From IMG/VR virus record IMGVR_UViG_3300029957_000038, positions 1 through 25,462 of that record: a stretch of DNA of 25,462 nucleotides; one strand, 5' to 3'. The DNA comes from a virus. Shown here one piece after another: positions 1 through 16,334 of the stretch (position 1 is its first letter; each line of letters starts with the position of its first letter). Position numbers and translations under genes: made by a program. The notes below the pieces were generated by a model that was not told the DNA's origin, made no database searches, and worked only from the letters and a program-made list of their open reading frames with translations.

Positions 1-700
1 TGGTCGCCGTGCTGCCGGCCTCAACGTCGTACACCTGGCCTTGGTTCAACTTCCCGGAGACCTGGTTGCTGTTGACGTTGGCCGCGTAAGCCAGCGCGCC
101 GAGTGCGTTGGTGGACATGTTCACCACCTGGTTGCTGGACAGCGTGGCCACGTTGCCCACCGCCGTGAACGCGCCCGATGCCAGCCCGTTGGTGGCCGCC
201 GCGGATGCCGCGGACGCGATGTTCGTTACCTGTGTGAAGTTTGGGCTGTTCGTTCCGCCGCCGCCGCCGCTGATGGTGATGCTGCCGTCGCCGTTGGTGA
301 CCAGCGTGATCCCGGAGCCGCCATTGAGCACGGGCGTCTGAAAAATCTGCAGCGGTGAAAACTGATTCGTGTTGATGAGCGTGGCCGCGTTAATGACATT
401 CGTGGAAAACGGAACCACGATGTGCGCCGACCGGGGCCAGCCGGAAACCGTTATGGTATAGCCCCAGGGCACGAGGTTGGTCAGTATTTGGCCGTTGGAG
501 GGCTGGAGCGTGAAATCAAACGTGGGCAGGAGATTGGTGCCGAACACCAGGGGATTTTGCGCTCGGTCGGGATGAACCAGGATCGAGCGGTTGTTCACGG
601 TGCCGGTAAGGCTTTGAAGCGTGAACAGCACCGGCGTGGTCTGGGCCGAAGCCAAATTGAGCCCGAGCAACAAAAGCAAAATGCGTGGTAGAGTTTTCAT
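1..700 (-). CDS. Secreted Asn/Thr-rich phage protein, possible fibre or tail-associated protein (C-terminus outside window)
   Basis: The reading frame starts with ATG at 700-698 and stays open for 233 codons to the left edge, so the C-terminus is missing. Residues 1-19 form a signal peptide: Lys at position 3, Arg at 6, a run of Leu, then a small-residue cleavage site (ASA before QTT). The mature part is rich in Asn, Thr and Ser, with a Gly run (GGGGG) near residue 147 and then an Ala/Asn-rich stretch with short repeated turns (SNQV occurs twice), as in beta-structured fibre proteins. The start lies one base after the stop of the upstream gene, so it belongs to the late operon. A signal peptide is odd for a virion protein. 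It could be a fibre-like protein that passes the membrane, a surface protein made by the lysogen, or a misread start. Function is not established. Confidence 0.7.
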   Translation of the reverse strand, partial: MKTLPRILLLLLGLNLASAQTTPVLFTLQSLTGTVNNRSILVHPDRAQNPLVFGTNLLPTFDFTLQPSNGQILTNLVPWGYTITVSGWPRSAHIVVPFSTNVINAATLINTNQFSPLQIFQTPVLNGGSGITLVTNGDGSITISGGGGGTNSPNFTQVTNIASAASAAATNGLASGAFTAVGNVATLSSNQVVNMSTNALGALAYAANVNSNQVSGKLNQGQVYDVEAGSTAT

Positions 701-4610: not shown

Positions 4611-5552
4611 TTAAGGCTGGCTGGCGCTGTCGTAGTGCGTGCTCAGCACGGGAATGGTGTTGCTCACGTTCGCCGGGGTGAGCGAGACAATGACCGGTCG
4701 GCCATAGGCGCCGCTGTAAATGGCGTCGCCGTTGATCCACTGGTTGGTGCCGGCGCCGACGTAGAGCGAGCTGACCGTTCCCATCACGTAGATTTCGTCG
4801 GACACGCTCGGGTAGACCGGGAAGGCCGCGGTCGTGACGATGTAGCTGACGTTGGTGGCCAACGCGCCGGCCGGGCCGGTGCCGTAGGTGCCGGTGGTCG
4901 TGACCTGGTTGGTAAGCAAACCGGCCGGCATGATGTTGGTGCCGGTGTTGTACCAGGAGGTCACGCCGTTGGTGTAGCCGACGCCGCTGGCCCAATGCAT
5001 CAAGACCACGGTGGCCGAGGTGGACAGGCCGTTGGTGGCGTTGACGATGTTGGTGACGGTGCCACTGTACATGCTGTTGCTGGTGGTCACGGAAAGCGCC
5101 GTGGTCCCGCTGCTCATGTTGAGGTTGGCGATGTTCGTGTCGCTCTTGTAGTTGATCGACACGATGCGAATCTGCGAGAACTGATCGGCGGGCAATACGA
5201 TGGTGCTCGGGGCGGCCGCGCTGCCGTAAGTGCCGAACGTGCGATAGGTCGGGATGTTCGCCAGCGCCTTTCGAACGCCAAGCGCGAGCAGCGCCAAGAG
5301 GAGAATCATCGCAAAATGCCAGGTGCCGCCGCCCATCTTGTCTTTCGGGCGATGGGGCACGGTGACTTTCTGCGTGGTCTCGACGGGATCACCGTCCGCG
5401 TTTTGCGTGGTCACCGGAACTTCCACGGTGACGAGCCGACCATCGTGTTTCTCGCTAACGGAGACCACTTTGGTCTTGGTGACTTTCAGGGTGTTGGGGG
5501 CGACGTGGTTGACCTCGTCGCCGACTTTCGGGGTTTTGAACGTTTCAGCCAT
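4611..5552 (-). CDS. Membrane-spanning beta-rich protein next to the major capsid gene (313 aa)
   Basis: The first 75 residues are charged and contain repeated TKV/VTV strands. Residues 79-94 form a hydrophobic segment (AMILLLALLALG) followed by RKALAN, which reads like an internal signal anchor or a late signal peptide. The remaining 210 residues are rich in Thr, Ser, Asn, Gly and Tyr and look like beta strands (TYGTGPAG, VLMHWASGVGYTNGV). The gene directly follows the major capsid gene, where decoration proteins are often encoded, but a decoration protein should not need a membrane segment. It may be a membrane partner of the equally membrane-tagged capsid protein. I recognise no family. 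Confidence 0.65.
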   Translation of the reverse strand: MAETFKTPKVGDEVNHVAPNTLKVTKTKVVSVSEKHDGRLVTVEVPVTTQNADGDPVETTQKVTVPHRPKDKMGGGTWHFAMILLLALLALGVRKALANIPTYRTFGTYGSAAAPSTIVLPADQFSQIRIVSINYKSDTNIANLNMSSGTTALSVTTSNSMYSGTVTNIVNATNGLSTSATVVLMHWASGVGYTNGVTSWYNTGTNIMPAGLLTNQVTTTGTYGTGPAGALATNVSYIVTTAAFPVYPSVSDEIYVMGTVSSLYVGAGTNQWINGDAIYSGAYGRPVIVSLTPANVSNTIPVLSTHYDSASQP

Positions 5553-5634: not shown

Positions 5635-7155
5635 TTAGGCCGGCGGCAATTGGAGCGCCGACATGGCGTCCAGGGCCATGGCCTCGAAGTCAATACGCTC
5701 CAGGGCGCGCATCGCGAGTTCGTCCGTGGTGAAGAACACTTCGCGGCTGATCTCGACGCGGGGAGCCCCGCGTTCGCCCAAGTACCAAAAGCTTAGATCG
5801 CCGAAGAAGGCGATGAAGCCATTGGGATGCGCGTTGTTGTCGTTGGCCACGGACACGCCGATCCAGCGGATGGGCCAGCCGTCCAGGGTGGCGGGCTGAC
5901 CGTTGCGGCCCGGGATGTAGATTTGCGGAGTGCCAATCGTGTTGAAGGTCACCAGCAACGATTCGAGCGAGGGATGCAGGTAGTACGCCGCCATGGTCTG
6001 TCCACTGGCGGCCATGTTGGCGAGCACGCCGGCATTGACCAGGCCGCGCATGGCGCGGAAGTCGTTGATGGTGGCGTCGGTGGCCATCGTATTGCCGGCC
6101 TTGAGCACGCGAAGGTACGTGGGATTGTTGACGCAGAACTGGCCAATGCCGGTGATGTTGGCATAAGTGCCGGTGCCGTCGCCCAGGAACAGTGTCGTGT
6201 CTTCGAGCTTGGCGAGCTGACGGGCTATGTATCGCGCCAGGAACTGGCCGAGTTGGATGAACGTGTCCTCCTCCAGTTCAGTCGGGATACGGATGAGGCC
6301 GCCGGCCTTGTTGGCGGTGAAGGTGACGAGCGTGGCCGTGACTTCCTTCTGGGTGACGGTCTGGCTGATGCCGGCCGTTCCGGCGCCGAGGAACCCGAAG
6401 GCGTCTTCACCGGCGAGCAAGCGGGGCAGTTTGACGGTGCCGGCCCCGAGCGGGAAGACCGTGCAATATTGCCGGGCCTGGCCGTATTTGAACACCAGCT
6501 CGATGACCTGCGGCATGTAGATGGTGGGCAACGGAATGTCCGTGGGCGTGAGCGCGCCGCCGGCCTTGGTCTCGATGCCGAGATATTCACGGGAGAGATT
6601 CACCAGGGATTCCCAGGAGCGTTGCTCCTTGTTGAGCTGGCGCATGGCGTTTTCGCCGAGCTTGTGCGCTTCCAGGACCAACACGGAGGAAAGCGCCTTG
6701 GCGCAATCGTCGGTGACGAATGGGACGTTGCCGACCCAGCGCACGCCGGTCTGCATGGAGGAAGCCACATGCTTGCGCAGCTTGCGGACTTCGGCTTCCA
6801 GCTGGTCGACGCGCTTGGCTTCGGAGCTCATGAGTTCGGGAATCTTCTGCAACGATGCAAAGCCCTTTTCCTTGTCCTGGAGGGATTTGAACAGTTCGGA
6901 GTTGTCGCCGATGAATTTGGCGGCCGCCTTGGTGGCGTCCTCAAATTCCTTGATCTGCTCGGGAGTCAGGGCGGAGAAGAACACGCGGCCGCGGCGGTAG
7001 CCCTTGCTCATGGCAAACTGCGTGAGCTGGTACAGCACGACGCCGAACCAGGCGACGCCGGCCAGCGGCGGAGCGATGTGGGAGATGAGGGCCGCCAGGA
7101 GAATCACGCAGAACAAGGCGGTCAAATGGCGGTACGGTTTTAACAATTGTTTCAT
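5635..7155 (-). CDS. HK97-family major capsid protein with N-terminal membrane hairpin (506 aa)
   Basis: Residues 1-10 are basic. Two hydrophobic segments follow (about 11-28 and 31-48) with an APPLAG turn between them, then a basic GYRRGR stretch. Residues 64-132 are a charged coiled coil like the delta (scaffold) domain of HK97-type capsid proteins. The rest has HK97-fold signs: a central MPQVIELV region, a glycine-rich TNKAGG/IRIPTELEED segment, a HPSLESLL helix, and a C-terminal stretch FFGDLSFWYLGERG followed by REVFFTTDELAMRALERID. I chose the ATG at 7155, just past the protease stop (7190); an ATG at 7212 would overlap the protease. The protease upstream presumably removes the N-terminal part. 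The membrane hairpin is most unusual. Confidence 0.85.
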   Translation of the reverse strand: MKQLLKPYRHLTALFCVILLAALISHIAPPLAGVAWFGVVLYQLTQFAMSKGYRRGRVFFSALTPEQIKEFEDATKAAAKFIGDNSELFKSLQDKEKGFASLQKIPELMSSEAKRVDQLEAEVRKLRKHVASSMQTGVRWVGNVPFVTDDCAKALSSVLVLEAHKLGENAMRQLNKEQRSWESLVNLSREYLGIETKAGGALTPTDIPLPTIYMPQVIELVFKYGQARQYCTVFPLGAGTVKLPRLLAGEDAFGFLGAGTAGISQTVTQKEVTATLVTFTANKAGGLIRIPTELEEDTFIQLGQFLARYIARQLAKLEDTTLFLGDGTGTYANITGIGQFCVNNPTYLRVLKAGNTMATDATINDFRAMRGLVNAGVLANMAASGQTMAAYYLHPSLESLLVTFNTIGTPQIYIPGRNGQPATLDGWPIRWIGVSVANDNNAHPNGFIAFFGDLSFWYLGERGAPRVEISREVFFTTDELAMRALERIDFEAMALDAMSALQLPPA

Positions 7156-7189: not shown

Positions 7190-7909
7190 TCACGCCCGTT
7201 TGAGGACCTCATTTAGGCCACGAGCGATTTGCAGCAAATGCGCGTCAGGAGTTCCCTCACCGGACGCGCAGCCGGGGTGGGGAGCTTGCTTTTCTTCACT
7301 GCAAAATTGGTCCGAGCCGGACAGGCCCTGGAGATGCTCGATGACGGCCTTGATGTCGGCGCGAACGATGGCGCCGGATTTCAAGGCCAAGCCCACGGTC
7401 GCGCCGGGATTGGCGGGGACCACCACGAGCGAGATTTCGAGCAGCTCGGTCTTGGTATAGGTGCGGTCGGGCTTGTCCTTGTCGTTGCCGTTGATCCATT
7501 CCAGCGGAATAAAGCCGACGCTCTGCGACTTGATGAAGCCGCCTTTGGCCATTTTATAGGCCATGGCGCCCATGGGATTATCCAGGCAGAACTCGACGCG
7601 GTTGCAGAGCTGGCCGTTGGTGACGCCGACGGTTTGCGCGCGGCCCAGAATTTTGCCGACGCTGGAATAATCGTGGCAGTCGGGGATGACCGGGTTGGCG
7701 CGGAAGTTGTCGAGTTGCCAGCCGGCCTGGTCGATGACCTCGTTGTATCGGTCGACCGTGTTGTCGCTGCCGATGAAGTCCATCACCGGCGCTTCGCCGG
7801 CGACTTCCTTGACCGTGCAATGCACGCCGGCCCGGATGCCGGGCGCGCCAGTGTTGAGCGTGCAGATGCGGGCGCCGAATTCCTTGAGGAGTTGATCGAG
7901 TGTTTTCAT
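7190..7909 (-). CDS. HK97-family prohead protease (239 aa)
   Basis: The ATG at 7909 overlaps the portal stop as ATGA and is preferred to an upstream ATG at 8014 that lies inside the portal gene. The protein shows the serine protease pattern of the U35/S78 prohead protease family: an early MDFIGSDNTVDRYNEVID segment, His79 in a CHDYSSVGKILG context, Ser130 in KSQSVGFIP, and the ELLEISLVVVPANPGA motif at about 155-170. The enzyme matures the capsid by cutting the capsid protein delta domain and itself. The last 45 residues (SEEKQAPHPG and onward) look like a self-cleaved tail. Gene order portal-protease-capsid is the HK97 order. Confidence 0.88.
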   Translation of the reverse strand: MKTLDQLLKEFGARICTLNTGAPGIRAGVHCTVKEVAGEAPVMDFIGSDNTVDRYNEVIDQAGWQLDNFRANPVIPDCHDYSSVGKILGRAQTVGVTNGQLCNRVEFCLDNPMGAMAYKMAKGGFIKSQSVGFIPLEWINGNDKDKPDRTYTKTELLEISLVVVPANPGATVGLALKSGAIVRADIKAVIEHLQGLSGSDQFCSEEKQAPHPGCASGEGTPDAHLLQIARGLNEVLKRA

Positions 7910-10284
7910 AGCTTTCGTTTGGGAAATGTCATGCGGCCGATGCCGTAAATTTTGAAGGTCGCCGTGGTCTCGTCCTCGGATTCCAATTGCGCGGCGACCA
8001 CGTCGCATTGGCAATTAATGATGTTGCCGGCGGTGGCGCCGTGCTCTTCGTCCAGGGGCTGCATCATCTGTTCAACGGCGCCCTCTTCGTTGGGCACGTC
8101 GAAGAGTTCACCGATGGCGATGGGCGCGTCCACGGTGGCGTCCTCAACGCTCTGATGGCCTTCGCGCGCGTGCGGGCCGTGGCTGCCCAGCCAGGATTTG
8201 TGCTCGATGCCGACATCCTTCATGGCCACATAGCCGGCTTTGCAGGTGGCCGTGTTGACTTCGGTGCGGGCGATCACCTTGGCCTTGCCGGCCGTCAGAT
8301 CATTAAATTTGTCCATCACACGCTGCGCGAGCTGCTGATGCGTTTCGCCGGCCTCGACGCCTTCGCTCAACGTGGTGTTGAGTTCGTTGCGCACTGCGTC
8401 GCTGACACCCACGATCTTGAGCTGACGGCCCGTGATATATTCCAGGACCTGCTTGGGCGGATATTTCCAGGGATCTTCATAGCCGATCTCCGACAGCATT
8501 TGCTCACCGGCCGATTGCAACAGCGCTTGGATAGGCTGCTTGAGTTCATCCGATAGGGAGTTGGCGAAGTCGTGACGGTCAAATATGATGTCGACCAGGC
8601 TCTTGGCTTCCCAGCTCAGCCGGCCGGCGGCTTTCTCCAGGTGAACCTCGTCAAGCTTGGCCAGCGTTTTCTTTCGGAAAACGTTCAGGACCTTGCCGAC
8701 CTTGCCTTTGAAGAGATTGACGTGCGCCTGGCGGAAATTCATCCGTTTGCGCCACAGGGCCGCGGTATTGGCGCGCAATTGCTGCTGGGGGGCCGATGCT
8801 TGATTGGACGGCCTGATCGCGGCGAGCACACGGCCCATGCGCGCAAACGGATTGCTTTTGTTCTGATCCTCCTCATCGTCATCTTCGGTCTCGCCCTCCG
8901 GCGCTTCGCTCGGCATCGCCTCGGGCGGGTTGCTGATGTTCTGGAGGTTGAACGGAAGATAGGCGTCCTTGCCCCATTTGTATTCGGGCATGCCAAGATC
9001 AAGCGAGGTGTTGATGTCGTTGAGCGGGACGCCAATGCCAAACATTTTCCCGGCCGTATCCCAACGCTGCCGGCGCGCTGCCTGCATGATGGGCAGTGAA
9101 TCAATGTCGAACCAGCCGACCAGGTCGTCGCCAAAACTGGTCACCACGGGCTGCACGGCCGTTTCGCAACGCGTGCAGAGACTGCCGACGGTGCTCTCGA
9201 TGAAGCTGATCTTTTGCGCGTCCAGGCTGCCGCCGGCGCCGCCGTCGTTCAAATCCTCGGTAAAGCCCGCCATCACGTCGGGGACTTTCAGGATGGCGAA
9301 GATTTCGCGGCGAAGGAATTTGCGCGTTTCCAGGAATTGCATGTCCTGGCTGGTGAGGGTGGGCTTCTCCACCTTGGCGCCGCCCCACAAAAAGAGCGGG
9401 CGGTCCGCGGTGCCGGCCTTGCGCTTGCGCTCGCGCAGCGCGGCCAGGATGGCGGCTTGCTGTTCCTTGGTGGCCTGCTGGTCGGTGGTCACGATGACGC
9501 CGGTGTCGGCATTGTTGATCCACAGGCCCTTGGCGTATTGCTCGCCGGCGTAGTCCGTGCGGCAAGCCACGTCGGCAACGATCAGCGGGCTCATGCCGCG
9601 CCAGAATAGGTACGGATTGGGCTGGCGCGAGAAGAGCACTTCGCTGGGCAGTAGCATCTGGCTGGGCAGCGGCGTGAGCAGCGGGCTGCCGGTATAGCGC
9701 CAACCCTCCAGATCGTAACCCACCACGATGTGCCAAAAGAGTTCGGTGGGCAGGGTGATCATGCGCTCGACCCTCGGGTGACGGTCGGACATATCGACGG
9801 GGCCATCCATTCGGTCCAAGGGCAGGATGAAGAATTCGCCGCGCATGGCGTTCCACGTGACCACCATCTCCCAGAAGAGCTGGCGATCCATGGTCGGGTG
9901 CGGCCGTTCGAACAAGTCGACCACGGGGCCGCTCGTGATGATTTCCTCATCCAGGGCGCGCCGCACGATCTTGCGATGCTCGGGATGGGCGGAATTGCGC
10001 AGCGCCCGGACTTGCTTGGCGTTGCCGCCCTTAACCCGGGAGATTCGGAAAGGTATCTGCGCCACGGACTGCGCCAGGATGCTGACCGCGCAATAGACCC
10101 ATGCGCTCTGGGCGTAGGCCGTCACGAACTTGGAGGCGTTCCCGTTGTCGTAGGTGTCCAGGTCGGTGCCCTGGACGAAGGCTTGCATGTCCGGGGACAG
10201 GGATTTCTCCTCCCGGCGGGGGGGCAATTCGGCCCGGCGGAAGACGTTCCCGGTGAAGGGCGAGAATTGGAGGTTTTTAGACAT
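7906..10284 (-). CDS. Portal protein fused to MuF head-morphogenesis domain (792 aa)
   Basis: The start is the ATG at 10284, six bases after a perfect GGAGG (10295-10291); an ATG at 10353 would overlap the small gene upstream. Residues 1 to about 450 form an HK97-type portal: AWVYCAVSILAQSVAQIPFR near 61-80, and further on FLETRKFLRREIFAILKVPD. After an acidic linker (EGETEDDDEEDQ) a helical region leads to a MuF (SPP1 gp7) domain: ARTEVNTA at about 672, HAREGH at about 704-709, and NCQC at about 757. Portal proteins form the DNA channel; MuF proteins sit inside the head and may be ejected. Both usually come from separate genes, so this is a natural fusion with no visible frameshift. Confidence 0.88.
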   Translation of the reverse strand: MSKNLQFSPFTGNVFRRAELPPRREEKSLSPDMQAFVQGTDLDTYDNGNASKFVTAYAQSAWVYCAVSILAQSVAQIPFRISRVKGGNAKQVRALRNSAHPEHRKIVRRALDEEIITSGPVVDLFERPHPTMDRQLFWEMVVTWNAMRGEFFILPLDRMDGPVDMSDRHPRVERMITLPTELFWHIVVGYDLEGWRYTGSPLLTPLPSQMLLPSEVLFSRQPNPYLFWRGMSPLIVADVACRTDYAGEQYAKGLWINNADTGVIVTTDQQATKEQQAAILAALRERKRKAGTADRPLFLWGGAKVEKPTLTSQDMQFLETRKFLRREIFAILKVPDVMAGFTEDLNDGGAGGSLDAQKISFIESTVGSLCTRCETAVQPVVTSFGDDLVGWFDIDSLPIMQAARRQRWDTAGKMFGIGVPLNDINTSLDLGMPEYKWGKDAYLPFNLQNISNPPEAMPSEAPEGETEDDDEEDQNKSNPFARMGRVLAAIRPSNQASAPQQQLRANTAALWRKRMNFRQAHVNLFKGKVGKVLNVFRKKTLAKLDEVHLEKAAGRLSWEAKSLVDIIFDRHDFANSLSDELKQPIQALLQSAGEQMLSEIGYEDPWKYPPKQVLEYITGRQLKIVGVSDAVRNELNTTLSEGVEAGETHQQLAQRVMDKFNDLTAGKAKVIARTEVNTATCKAGYVAMKDVGIEHKSWLGSHGPHAREGHQSVEDATVDAPIAIGELFDVPNEEGAVEQMMQPLDEEHGATAGNIINCQCDVVAAQLESEDETTATFKIYGIGRMTFPKRKL

Positions 10285-10471
10285 CGGAAACCTCCAACCA
10301 CAAAAAACGGCTTCCGGGAGCCACCCCGTCCAGAGTACGCAGGCGCCAGACACCTGTTAAAAGTGATTTAATGGCCTTCTGAGGGGGGGATGTGCGCCCG
10401 GCGGCATGTTCGGACCCCCGGGGAGCTTCCGACGCAATGGCGGGCAAATTGGCTTTTTGGGTTTTGGTCAT
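10277..10471 (-). CDS. Small protein between terminase and portal (64 aa)
   Basis: The ATG overlaps the large terminase stop (ATGA), and the stop codon lies eight bases inside the portal start region, so the frame is locked at both ends. The 64-residue protein starts basic and polar (TKTQKANLPA) and ends with a more hydrophobic RLRTLDGVAPGSRFLWLEVS stretch that may be a small beta fold. It matches no family I recognise. The GGAGG that serves the portal lies inside this gene, so its translation may control access to the portal start. Confidence 0.6.
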   Translation of the reverse strand: MTKTQKANLPAIASEAPRGSEHAAGRTSPPQKAIKSLLTGVWRLRTLDGVAPGSRFLWLEVSDV

Positions 10472-13097: not shown

Positions 13098-13489
13098 AAA
13101 ATATTTGGCTGCGTTTCCCTGGGGGCCACTGCGTGGCCATGGCGGGCCAGAAATTCCCCGGCCATCCCGCGGCTGGCCAGGCGGTAGACATTCAGCCAGC
13201 GAGACTTGGCGCCGGGCCGCTCGCTCTTGATCCGGTTGGCATACCAGGTGCCCTGTTGCACGATGCCGACGGGCTCGATCACCGATGCGTTTTGCAACAG
13301 GGTGACCACGCTCCCGGCAATGCCGTTGCCCGTGCCTCGCTCGGCGTCGGGCACGATGTCCGTGGTCCAACAGGCCTGGCCGGCGTCGAGCTTGGCCAGG
13401 GCGTGCTTGACCAGGGCCACGGCGAAAGCGAGGACCTCGTCGTTTTTCCAAACGACCTCCTGGTGGATGGCTGTGGCGGGGGCTGGCAT
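13094..13489 (-). CDS. Unknown late protein, possible winged-helix (131 aa)
   Basis: The start overlaps the lipase stop by one base (TAATG), and the stop overlaps the next start as ATGA. The 131-residue protein has an N-terminal helix (DEVLAFAVALVKHALAKLD) and a central segment ERGTGNGIAGSVVTLLQNAS followed by a beta pair (IEPVGIVQQGTWYANRIKS) and WLNVYRL. That order, helix-turn-helix then wing, suggests a DNA-binding fold similar in outline to the 82-residue protein two genes downstream. No family name can be given. Confidence 0.6.
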   Translation of the reverse strand: MPAPATAIHQEVVWKNDEVLAFAVALVKHALAKLDAGQACWTTDIVPDAERGTGNGIAGSVVTLLQNASVIEPVGIVQQGTWYANRIKSERPGAKSRWLNVYRLASRGMAGEFLARHGHAVAPRETQPNIL

Positions 13490-14268
13490 TATTCGGAAAG
13501 GCAGTCGAGGGCCGACGTGTAGTTGTTGATATGGTGGTCTTGGATGGGATCAATGGCGCCAGCGAACTTGCTGATGCAGAATGCGCGGTAGATTCCCCAG
13601 ACGTCCGAAGCCAGGAGCGACCAGATGGACGGATCAATCAAAGGAGCTTCGCCGCTGATGGCCGGCAGGAAAACCTCCGTGCCGACATGGCGATAAGGAT
13701 CGTGCCAGGCCGGAAGGTGGGGCACGCGCGCAACAATGTCCTCCTCATAGACCACCCGGAATGTACGATTGCCCAGGAATTTTTCATACCGCCGCTTGAA
13801 ATCGCCATTGCCAACCCGCGGCTGGCCGAACGTATAAACCTGCGCGACCTGGAAACCGTTGCGATGCAAAGTCAGCGCGGCGAGAATGGCCAGGGCACCG
13901 CCGAGCGAATGGCCGGTGACAAATATCGGCTTGCAGTTCTGCACGTTGAAAACTTGGGAACCGCCCAGCCTGGCGTATATCCGCTCCCACACGCTGTTCA
14001 GGGCGCGCTCAAAGCCCTTGTGAACTTTGGAAATGGAGCCGTCCTCGCAGGCAACCAGGTTCACCCGCTCAAACTCCGAGTCGGTGATCCAATTACGAAT
14101 GCTGGCGGTGCCGCGAAACGCCAAGATCAGATAATCAGCCGATTCGCCGATGAGTACGTGCGTGTCCGTGCCAGTGTCGCAAAGGGTCGATTGCCGATAG
14201 GCGTCGGCGCTGAAGCTGGCGCAGCTCCGGGCGTTGCCAGGGTCAAAAGATTTCGCGGCTAGGTTCAT
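13489..14268 (-). CDS. Class 3 lipase, alpha/beta hydrolase (259 aa)
   Basis: The ATG at 14268 is used because it overlaps the upstream stop as ATGA. The protein carries the full set of class 3 lipase marks: the oxyanion-region motif AFRGT at 50-54, the nucleophile elbow GHSLGGA with Ser121, a YTFGQPRVGN segment at 145-154, Asp177 in EEDIVARVPH, and His245 or His246 in QDHHINNY. Length is normal for the catalytic domain. There is no signal peptide, so the enzyme should stay in the cytoplasm until membrane damage. Its place among lysis-like genes (lipoprotein, coiled-coil membrane protein) suggests a role in lysis or envelope lipid attack; no muralytic enzyme is seen in this window. A metabolic cargo role is the alternative. 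Confidence 0.85.
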   Translation of the reverse strand: MNLAAKSFDPGNARSCASFSADAYRQSTLCDTGTDTHVLIGESADYLILAFRGTASIRNWITDSEFERVNLVACEDGSISKVHKGFERALNSVWERIYARLGGSQVFNVQNCKPIFVTGHSLGGALAILAALTLHRNGFQVAQVYTFGQPRVGNGDFKRRYEKFLGNRTFRVVYEEDIVARVPHLPAWHDPYRHVGTEVFLPAISGEAPLIDPSIWSLLASDVWGIYRAFCISKFAGAIDPIQDHHINNYTSALDCLSE

Positions 14269-14618
14269 GCGTTCCGTTCGATCCACTTGACGACATCGAG
14301 CAAGAGCTGTTGGCTGCGGACCTTGATCTCGGCGATGCGCGCATTCCGTCGCGCGCCAGCCGGCTGCAATTGAAGCGCCTCGAATTCGCGGCGGAGAAAC
14401 TTCCGCGTGTCGTCGAACATTTGAAGTTCCACGTGGAGCAAAGGAGAAGACGTGCCACCAGCTCCGACTGCGTCGGAGTTAATCCCATTGCCCGTTTGTC
14501 GCGGCTTTCGCATCAATGGCTTATATGCCGACGGGTCTTCACTTGCCCGGTCCTTCGGGCGCTGACACACACGCTTCGCGCTGGTGGCCCCACTAACGGT
14601 TGCCAGCTTGGTTTGCAT
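14265..14618 (-). CDS. Small helical protein upstream of the lipase (117 aa or shorter)
   Basis: The stop overlaps the lipase start as ATGA. The C-terminal half is clearly protein-like: a basic helix (MFDDTRKFLRREFEALQL) and then ARIAEIKVRSQQLLLDVVKW. The N-terminal half (SGATSAKRVCQRPKDR and on) looks disordered. An internal ATG that starts at MFDD would give a 51-residue protein and may be the real start. No membrane segment or family mark is seen. Function unknown. Confidence 0.5.
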   Translation of the reverse strand: MQTKLATVSGATSAKRVCQRPKDRASEDPSAYKPLMRKPRQTGNGINSDAVGAGGTSSPLLHVELQMFDDTRKFLRREFEALQLQPAGARRNARIAEIKVRSQQLLLDVVKWIERNA

Positions 14619-14972: not shown

Positions 14973-15548
14973 TTAAAAGCTGGGCACGCTCAGCGGGAGC
15001 CCGGGCTTGCTGGTGGTCGTGGTCGTCACCCCGTTGGTGCCTGTGGAGCTGGTCTGGACGGTTTGCGTGCTCAGCGGCGTGGCCGCTCCGGTGGCCGTCT
15101 GAAGCTGCGAATACGTCATCAAATTGTTGGTGGAGTAAAAACCCTCGTTGATCGGCTGATGCTGGCCACCGACCTGGGTGAGCACGCCATTGCCGCTGGC
15201 CAGCGTGTGGGTCTGGCCGGCGCTGCCGAACAGGAACGATTTGCCGGCCAGCTCGAACGACTCGGACACGTCCGGCACCAGGAGCACCGGCAAGCCGTTG
15301 CTGCCCACGTAGGCGTAGATGGGGATGGTGGTGAGCGTGGCGTAGACATTGGCCACTCCGAGCGAAGCCTGGCCGGTGAGCGGATCGTAGACGATGCCGT
15401 CTTTGTTCCCGTTGCCGGTGAGATGGACGATGTGGGACGCCGGCGGGCTGGCGAGTAGTTTGGCCGCGCTGCTGGCGCATCCGGGAAGGACGGCCAGGGC
15501 GGCGACCAGGCCCACGGCGGCGAGAGCGGAGGTGAATTTATTTTTCAT
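14973..15548 (-). CDS. Phage-encoded lipoprotein, Thr/Ser-rich (191 aa)
   Basis: The N-terminus is a lipoprotein signal: MKNK, a hydrophobic core, and a lipobox LPGC with Cys24, so the mature protein should be lipid-anchored. The body contains short beta-like segments (IPIYAYVGSNGLPVLLVPD, FLFGSAGQTHTLASG), and the last 45 residues are very rich in Thr, Ser and Gly (TSSTGTNGVTTTTTS). It is the first firm gene of the main late operon. Phage lipoproteins are known as outer spanins and superinfection-exclusion proteins; this one is longer than a typical outer spanin. The role is open. Confidence 0.75.
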   Translation of the reverse strand: MKNKFTSALAAVGLVAALAVLPGCASSAAKLLASPPASHIVHLTGNGNKDGIVYDPLTGQASLGVANVYATLTTIPIYAYVGSNGLPVLLVPDVSESFELAGKSFLFGSAGQTHTLASGNGVLTQVGGQHQPINEGFYSTNNLMTYSQLQTATGAATPLSTQTVQTSSTGTNGVTTTTTSKPGLPLSVPSF

Positions 15549-15848: not shown

Positions 15849-16334
15849 TCACGGATTTAATTTGCGCCAAGCCTCGGTCTGCTTCTTGATTTCGTAAACC
15901 TGCATTTCGTAATCAGATGGCCATTGCAGCTGCGCGTCCGACCGAATGCGAGCGGCCACGGCTGCGGGCATCTGCCCTGGAGGAGACTGTGCGATGCGAA
16001 AAGAAGCTTGGCCCGGATGGGATGCGTTTAGGGTCGATATCAAATTCGATAGGGTTCCCGAAAGCTGTTTGGTTTGAAAATCATTTTCCAGTGAGTATGC
16101 GGCTATGACCTTAATGTCATTTACATTCGTTGCTGAAATTTCCACCAGGTTCGTAATTATTCCTGTCGCCCAATCCAAATAATTACTGGTGTTGTCCTGC
16201 CGCATTTTCAATAGCGCCACGTTGCTCTGAAGCATGGCAACTTGACTTTCAAGCTTGGCAACCTGGGGATCGGGCTTCTGCGTGCATCCGCAAAAACCGA
16301 TGATAATGGCAAAAAGAAGAAATGCGTTTTTCAT
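15849..16334 (-). CDS. Coiled-coil lipoprotein (161 aa)
   Basis: The N-terminus has a lipoprotein-type signal (MKNAFLLFAIIIGFCGC, lipid Cys at 17, or Cys15). Residues 20-45 form a heptad coiled coil (VAKLESQVAMLQSNVALLKM), a pattern common in trimeric or dimeric outer-membrane lipoproteins of the Lpp kind. The rest is polar and helical. The gene stands alone between a candidate promoter and a clear terminator, so it has its own transcription unit next to the regulator pair. It may be expressed in the lysogen, for example as a surface or exclusion protein, or be an outer spanin. Neither is shown by the sequence. Confidence 0.7.
   Translation of the reverse strand: MKNAFLLFAIIIGFCGCTQKPDPQVAKLESQVAMLQSNVALLKMRQDNTSNYLDWATGIITNLVEISATNVNDIKVIAAYSLENDFQTKQLSGTLSNLISTLNASHPGQASFRIAQSPPGQMPAAVAARIRSDAQLQWPSDYEMQVYEIKKQTEAWRKLNP

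Follow-up and report, generated by a model that had tools for sequence, protein, structure and literature searches.

The site at which the prohead starts is known for few tailed phages. The proheads of T4 and SPN3US are tethered to the inner membrane and released after proteolysis (PMC9026906), and that of T4 is attached at one vertex by way of its portal gp20, together with gp40 and YidC, the portal being without transmembrane (TM) sequences (PMC4493910). According to a 2011 review, membrane association of the prohead had not been demonstrated beyond T4 (PMC3185693), and SPN3US has since been added as a case (PMC9026906). The coat protein pVIII of filamentous phages stays in the inner membrane until assembly (PMC3185693), but it has an unrelated fold and the phage is extruded with no prohead. 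The closest precedents are found among encapsulins that have an export or membrane segment, namely the anammox Family 1 members with a Sec-like signal and the Mesorhizobium Family 3 members with C-terminal TM helices (PMC8346489). No description of a membrane segment on the capsid protein of a tailed phage was found in a search of part of the open-access literature.

The capsid protein described here belongs to an uncultured Mu-like phage. It is like the HK97 gp5 type in its PF05065 core, its N-terminal coiled-coil delta domain and the separate S78 protease gene just upstream, and unlike it in that some 57 additional residues at the N-terminus form a hairpin of membrane type ahead of delta. 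As in the encapsulins, an HK97-fold shell protein has an added segment of export or membrane type, except that theirs is a signal peptide or a C-terminal domain of 4-5 TM helices on a cellular compartment, whereas here it is a hairpin placed on a phage delta domain. The first-pass annotation of this DNA had pointed to T4 as a parallel. That holds to the extent that membrane-linked proheads with proteolytic release would be common to T4, SPN3US and this phage. The comparison is imperfect because in T4 the portal provides the link, at a single vertex, whereas in this phage the membrane segment belongs to the capsid subunit and the tether would be on the inner face of every subunit. Having a capsid protein with its own hairpin and close natural relatives with none makes the question directly testable by comparing both forms.

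The phage and its head genes

The window, by which we mean the whole stretch of DNA analysed, is a virus record from IMG/VR, 25,462 bases long. Its plus strand has a Mu-like gene set of a transposase (with weak likeness to PHROG 310), an AAA protein resembling MuB and a Gam-like protein, and its minus strand has the head genes, among them a terminase, a portal fused to a Mu F domain, an S78 protease and the HK97-type capsid protein. A relative at 63% identity sits in a genome bin of Pedosphaera (Verrucomicrobiota), from which the host is probably also a member of that phylum. The genes flanking the capsid gene are as follows.

7906..10353, minus strand: portal fused to a Mu F-like domain, start uncertain (PF04860 4e-40, PF04233 3e-7)
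7190..7909, minus strand: prohead protease (S78) gene, directly upstream of the capsid gene (PF04586 8e-10; PHROG 80 head maturation protease)
4611..5552, minus strand: next gene after the capsid gene, with a TWHW-type beta domain of about 75 aa, a TM/signal segment at residues 77-97 (DGpred -2.14; the signal peptide of relatives starts at the same place) and an exported beta-rich domain (AF2 pLDDT 79)

Across the virion block from terminase to tail, TM-type segments are present solely in the capsid protein and in the product of the next gene. A TM segment was looked for in the portal and none was found, no stretch scoring below +1 by DGpred, and in this it resembles the T4 portal (PMC4493910). 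Elsewhere on the minus strand there is a class 3 lipase gene (13489-14286, PF01764 5e-32) between the terminase and lipoprotein genes, the latter encoding two small proteins with lipobox-like N-termini, LPGC and FCGC (14973-15548 and 15849-16334), which are possible spanin or exclusion lipoproteins.

The capsid protein and its N-terminus

The capsid open reading frame runs from 7155 to 5635 on the minus strand and encodes 506 aa, beginning MKQLLKPYRHLTALFCVILLAALISHIAPPLAGVAWFGVVLYQLTQFAMSKGYRRGRVFFSALTPEQIKEFE. Its core matches PF05065 over residues 214-492 (5e-23, 82 bits against a cut-off of 24.2) and PHROG 10 major head protein at 1.7e-31; Foldseek gives weak matches of which the top ones are HK97-type capsids or shells. 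All the features tested, namely these matches, the predicted delta coiled coil and the adjacent S78 protease gene, place the protein in the HK97-type family, with a new N-terminal module added. The parts are as follows.

7126..7155, minus strand: start codon and basic N-flank MKQLLKPYRH; ATG 7155 aligns with the starts of homologues, and Y8, H10 and L11 are near-invariant
7072..7125, minus strand: predicted TM1, residues 11-28 (DGpred -1.39 with best window 8-28, Kyte-Doolittle 2.26, predicted helix 6-27)
7009..7065, minus strand: TM2 or amphipathic helix, residues 31-49, with motif YQLxQFA (DGpred borderline; Q43, L44 and Q46 invariant in 20/20; predicted helix 29-49)
6985..7008, minus strand: basic C-flank SKGYRRGR, residues 50-57 (net +4, S50 invariant)
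6760..6963, minus strand: delta (scaffolding) domain, residues 65-132 (predicted helices 65-84 and 95-132)
5638..6744, minus strand: HK97-fold capsid core, residues 138-506 (PF05065, PHROG 10, Foldseek)

The two hydrophobic stretches, residues 11-28 and 31-49, have no charged residue in between, and are flanked by a net +3 over the first 12 residues and the net +4 of SKGYRRGR. For insertion energies we re-implemented the DGpred scale; it finds 12 spans in E. coli LacY and none in LacZ or LacA, so the scale behaves. By this measure TM1 scores -1.39 kcal/mol and the next-best stretch in the rest of the protein +2.99, while TM2 comes out at +1.8 to +2.1 kcal/mol. Kyte-Doolittle gives 2.26 for TM1, 1.38 for the second segment and at most 0.99 for the remainder of the protein, and GES agrees with it. 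TM1 is predicted as a strong membrane segment by three scales and TM2 is borderline, at about 0.6 to 3 kcal/mol. AlphaFold2, supplied with 19 homologues, models helices at 6-27 and 29-49 joined by a tight turn, and then the delta helices at 65-84 and 95-132; mean pLDDT is 60.5, which makes the model as a whole one of low to moderate confidence, and that of the hairpin helices is about 60, so these are of moderate confidence only. The first-pass annotation had described two hydrophobic segments and a basic flank ahead of the delta domain, which is what we find, except that the second is marginal as a TM helix. Near the end of the delta coil, K125 and K128 are invariant, making that region a candidate protease cleavage site.

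Conservation of the hairpin

Searching with the whole protein found ten relatives in IMG/VR and one genome bin, and profile searches added more. The hairpin is present in 20 distinct relatives, in each case N-terminal on the capsid protein. When IMG/VR was scanned with the hairpin only, it was found at 23 loci, every one of which (23/23) is the N-terminus of an HK97-type capsid protein of the same kind; no free-standing hairpin gene was found in that database. L14, Q43, L44, Q46 and S50 are invariant in the 20 distinct carriers, with Y8, H10, L11 and A48 nearly so, and the best-conserved motif, [YWF]QLxQxxxS, falls in TM2. QLxQ and S50 stay invariant although the capsid cores diverge to 40% identity. 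Both flanks are positive in 20/20, with 0-2 charged residues in between (20/20), the C-flank has a net charge of +1 to +4 in all hairpin homologues, and TM1 is strongly hydrophobic in every one, with a best dG from -3.3 to +1.1. A pattern retained in 20 distinct carriers takes the hairpin beyond chance. By Nei-Gojobori counts over the hairpin, dN is lower than dS in most pairs with measurable divergence, for example 0.08 versus 0.39 for L002/L003, and the two are about equal in two distant pairs, L011/L019 and L012/L019.

Pfam and PHROGs, searched with the hairpin to E values up to 5, returned chance-level matches only, and PDB sequences gave nothing useful. Neither the whole protein nor the hairpin has a match in 50,697 cultured-phage records. 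Among 289 Verrucomicrobiota genomes the sole strong match to the hairpin is the known capsid protein in G001, the others being weak.

Exchange, presence and absence of the hairpin among relatives

A scan with the capsid core only gives 79 loci. There are 51 distinct cores in the clade, 21 with this hairpin, 12 with some other hydrophobic N-terminus, also with a positive N-flank, and 18 with none. Hydrophobic and non-hydrophobic N-termini separate cleanly, with a best dG of +1.06 or lower for the former and +1.6 or higher for the latter. The first-pass annotation had held that homologues lacking the hairpin at the same start would tell against its reading, and in part they do: many relatives carry the hairpin, but in L009/L010, L097, L099, L103 and L107 the delta domain comes first in the capsid protein, which makes the hairpin an optional module. 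A hydrophobic N-terminus was found in none of 10 outgroup cores and, with cultured phages as the control outside Verrucomicrobiota, in none of the 7 nearest cultured-phage capsids; one or two of 21 other Verrucomicrobiota capsids of PF05065 have one. A quick tree suggests about 12 gains or losses of a hydrophobic N-terminus within the clade, an approximate count because the deeper forks are weakly supported.

The hairpin is exchanged between cores and dispensable in relatives. Hairpin identity is about 48% irrespective of whether the cores are 43% or 70% identical, and in L062/L067 cores that are 97% identical have hairpins that are 50% identical, the divergent DNA consisting mostly of the protease gene and capsid codons roughly 8-55. 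In L002 and L003, identity at the DNA level is 100% beyond about codon 40 but falls to about 80% or less in the part ahead of it. Both pairs place recombination boundaries inside or at the edge of the hairpin, at capsid codons of about 8-55. In both, the protease gene is divergent and the capsid core near-identical, and in L062/L067 the portal end is likewise near-identical.

The other hydrophobic N-termini are mostly unrelated in sequence (L120, L122-L124, L126, L127, L134-L136, L141, L142 and L106; for example MKIIRNLIWLLAAITCMTAYNLLKLGGLNTVPLALCVVAEEKK), so in these 12 further relatives the property recurs in different sequences. The one in L126 resembles a degenerate version of the hairpin described here. 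We left L043 out of the hydrophobic count since its TM-like stretch lies upstream of a plausible later start; L041, with a GTG/ATG start and MYHLFLNLFGLSAFLRVFRLGVV, could be one more independent case. L084 3490-4863 (G191), a verrucomicrobial capsid at greater distance, also has a hydrophobic start, MYHLFLNLFGLSAFLRVFRLGVV, ahead of a coiled coil.

The gene after the capsid gene

In relatives, the next gene encodes a Sec-type signal peptide followed by a conserved mature start, for example SASA and then ALPTYRSF. In the window and its close relatives, the exported part is preceded by a further domain of about 75 residues whose end reads TWHF, TWHL or TWHW. The TWHW-type domain by itself is the next gene in L113 (4434-4706), L115 and L116 (4434-4730), with no exported gene after it. 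The 4611-5552 product is thus laid out as a fusion of a small phage domain with a signal-peptide-led, beta-rich exported protein that is a separate gene in L009, L012, L018 and others. Its AF2 model (pLDDT 79) gave no convincing fold match.

The first-pass annotation had taken the membrane segment of this product as a sign of a membrane-linked assembly site, and this we reject. Exported next genes are present beside the hairpin-less capsids of L095, L097, L099, L103 and L107 and missing beside the hairpin capsids of L113, L115, L116 and L065; in a second clade, most phages with a hydrophobic N-terminus have a plain head-tail adaptor as the next gene. The segment therefore tracks the clade and not the hairpin, giving no support to a membrane assembly site, and the 4611..5552 product is probably outside the hairpin mechanism.

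A possible role in head assembly

A conserved pair of membrane-type helices on the N-terminus of its capsid protein suggests that the shell of this phage may be built on the host inner membrane. Our best inference is that the conserved, basic-flanked hydrophobic hairpin ahead of delta looks like a membrane tether that is removed with the propeptide. The N-terminal residues, to about 57, would form a membrane-binding helical hairpin with both ends cytoplasmic and a short loop outside, extending the removable delta domain of the HK97-type capsid protein. The hairpin would direct newly synthesised capsid subunits to the inner membrane, on its cytoplasmic face, where the conserved Q/S face of helix 2 could drive subunit clustering and favour prohead nucleation, and the adjacent S78 protease would later cut off hairpin and delta domain, freeing the shell, so that mature virions would be without the hairpin. 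We lean slightly towards accepting this role, in which the hairpin, as a membrane-binding section of the delta propeptide that can be cleaved off, recruits capsid subunits to the inner membrane or nucleates them there. Should assembly at the membrane prove true, a membrane-dependent version would join the ways in which HK97-type shells are scaffolded.

The positive flanks with 0-2 charges between them fit the positive-inside rule for a hairpin with both ends inside. Against a membrane role are the borderline dG of TM2, the evidently functional capsid genes of relatives with no hydrophobic N-terminus, and the two distant pairs ending in L019 with dN about equal to dS. There is also the matter of geometry. 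In HK97-type capsids delta is on the interior of the prohead, and the same is expected here, so tethering every subunit by it would wrap the shell round membrane; several hundred tethers on the inner face would enclose it, and either tethering would then have to be transient or limited to early subunits, or the shell would briefly contain lipid.

The same interior position suits the main rival to membrane binding, in which the hairpin stays out of the membrane and forms a hydrophobic knot at delta's inner end, hundreds of them packing centrally as an internal scaffold until cleavage. A marginal TM2 and conserved polar residues (Q43, Q46, S50) are appropriate to helix packing, and the several unrelated hydrophobic N-termini would serve equally well. 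However, TM1 is as long and as hydrophobic as a true span, for which co-translational insertion is expected, and a protein core has no need of the basic flanks, both of which fit the positive-inside rule. We consider this reading unlikely.

In another reading, the shell would form round an inner-membrane bud or lipid vesicle held by the capsid hairpins, a transient scaffold lost on protease action, in a large group of uncultured tailed phages. An interior-facing N-terminal propeptide would curve tethered subunits round membrane, as this needs, and the phage does encode a class 3 lipase, though in a different gene block and with many other possible roles for such an enzyme. To our knowledge there is no lipid-containing tailed-phage prohead, and relatives manage without the hairpin, and we hold such a vesicle to be improbable.

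The swapping of the hairpin, as shown by the identity contrasts in L062/L067 and L002/L003, could also be that of a passenger on the capsid gene with no part in assembly, freed by the protease and then active at the membrane, perhaps in lysis or in the control of superinfection. This we regard as quite improbable: all 23 loci are on capsid proteins only, a free gene would be the simpler design, and, since capsid proteins are so abundantly produced, damaging the membrane too early would come at a high cost.

Finally, it is very improbable that the hairpin is an artefact, being untranslated DNA with translation beginning after it, for example at ATG 7011; the corresponding M49 is present in the window and would yield a normal capsid N-terminus, but half of the homologues have Q, R, L, T or I there with the hairpin still in frame, and a later start is rejected because no start codon downstream of the hairpin is conserved across the homologues while the hairpin frame and motif are. 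The hairpin reading frame is open in all carriers, with indels of whole codons, and GC3 is of coding type, both of which speak against untranslated DNA. The capsid start at 7155 is supported by the absence of a common later start and by a GC3 of 0.85 in the hairpin, 0.84 in the rest of the capsid gene, and 0.63 immediately upstream of the ATG.
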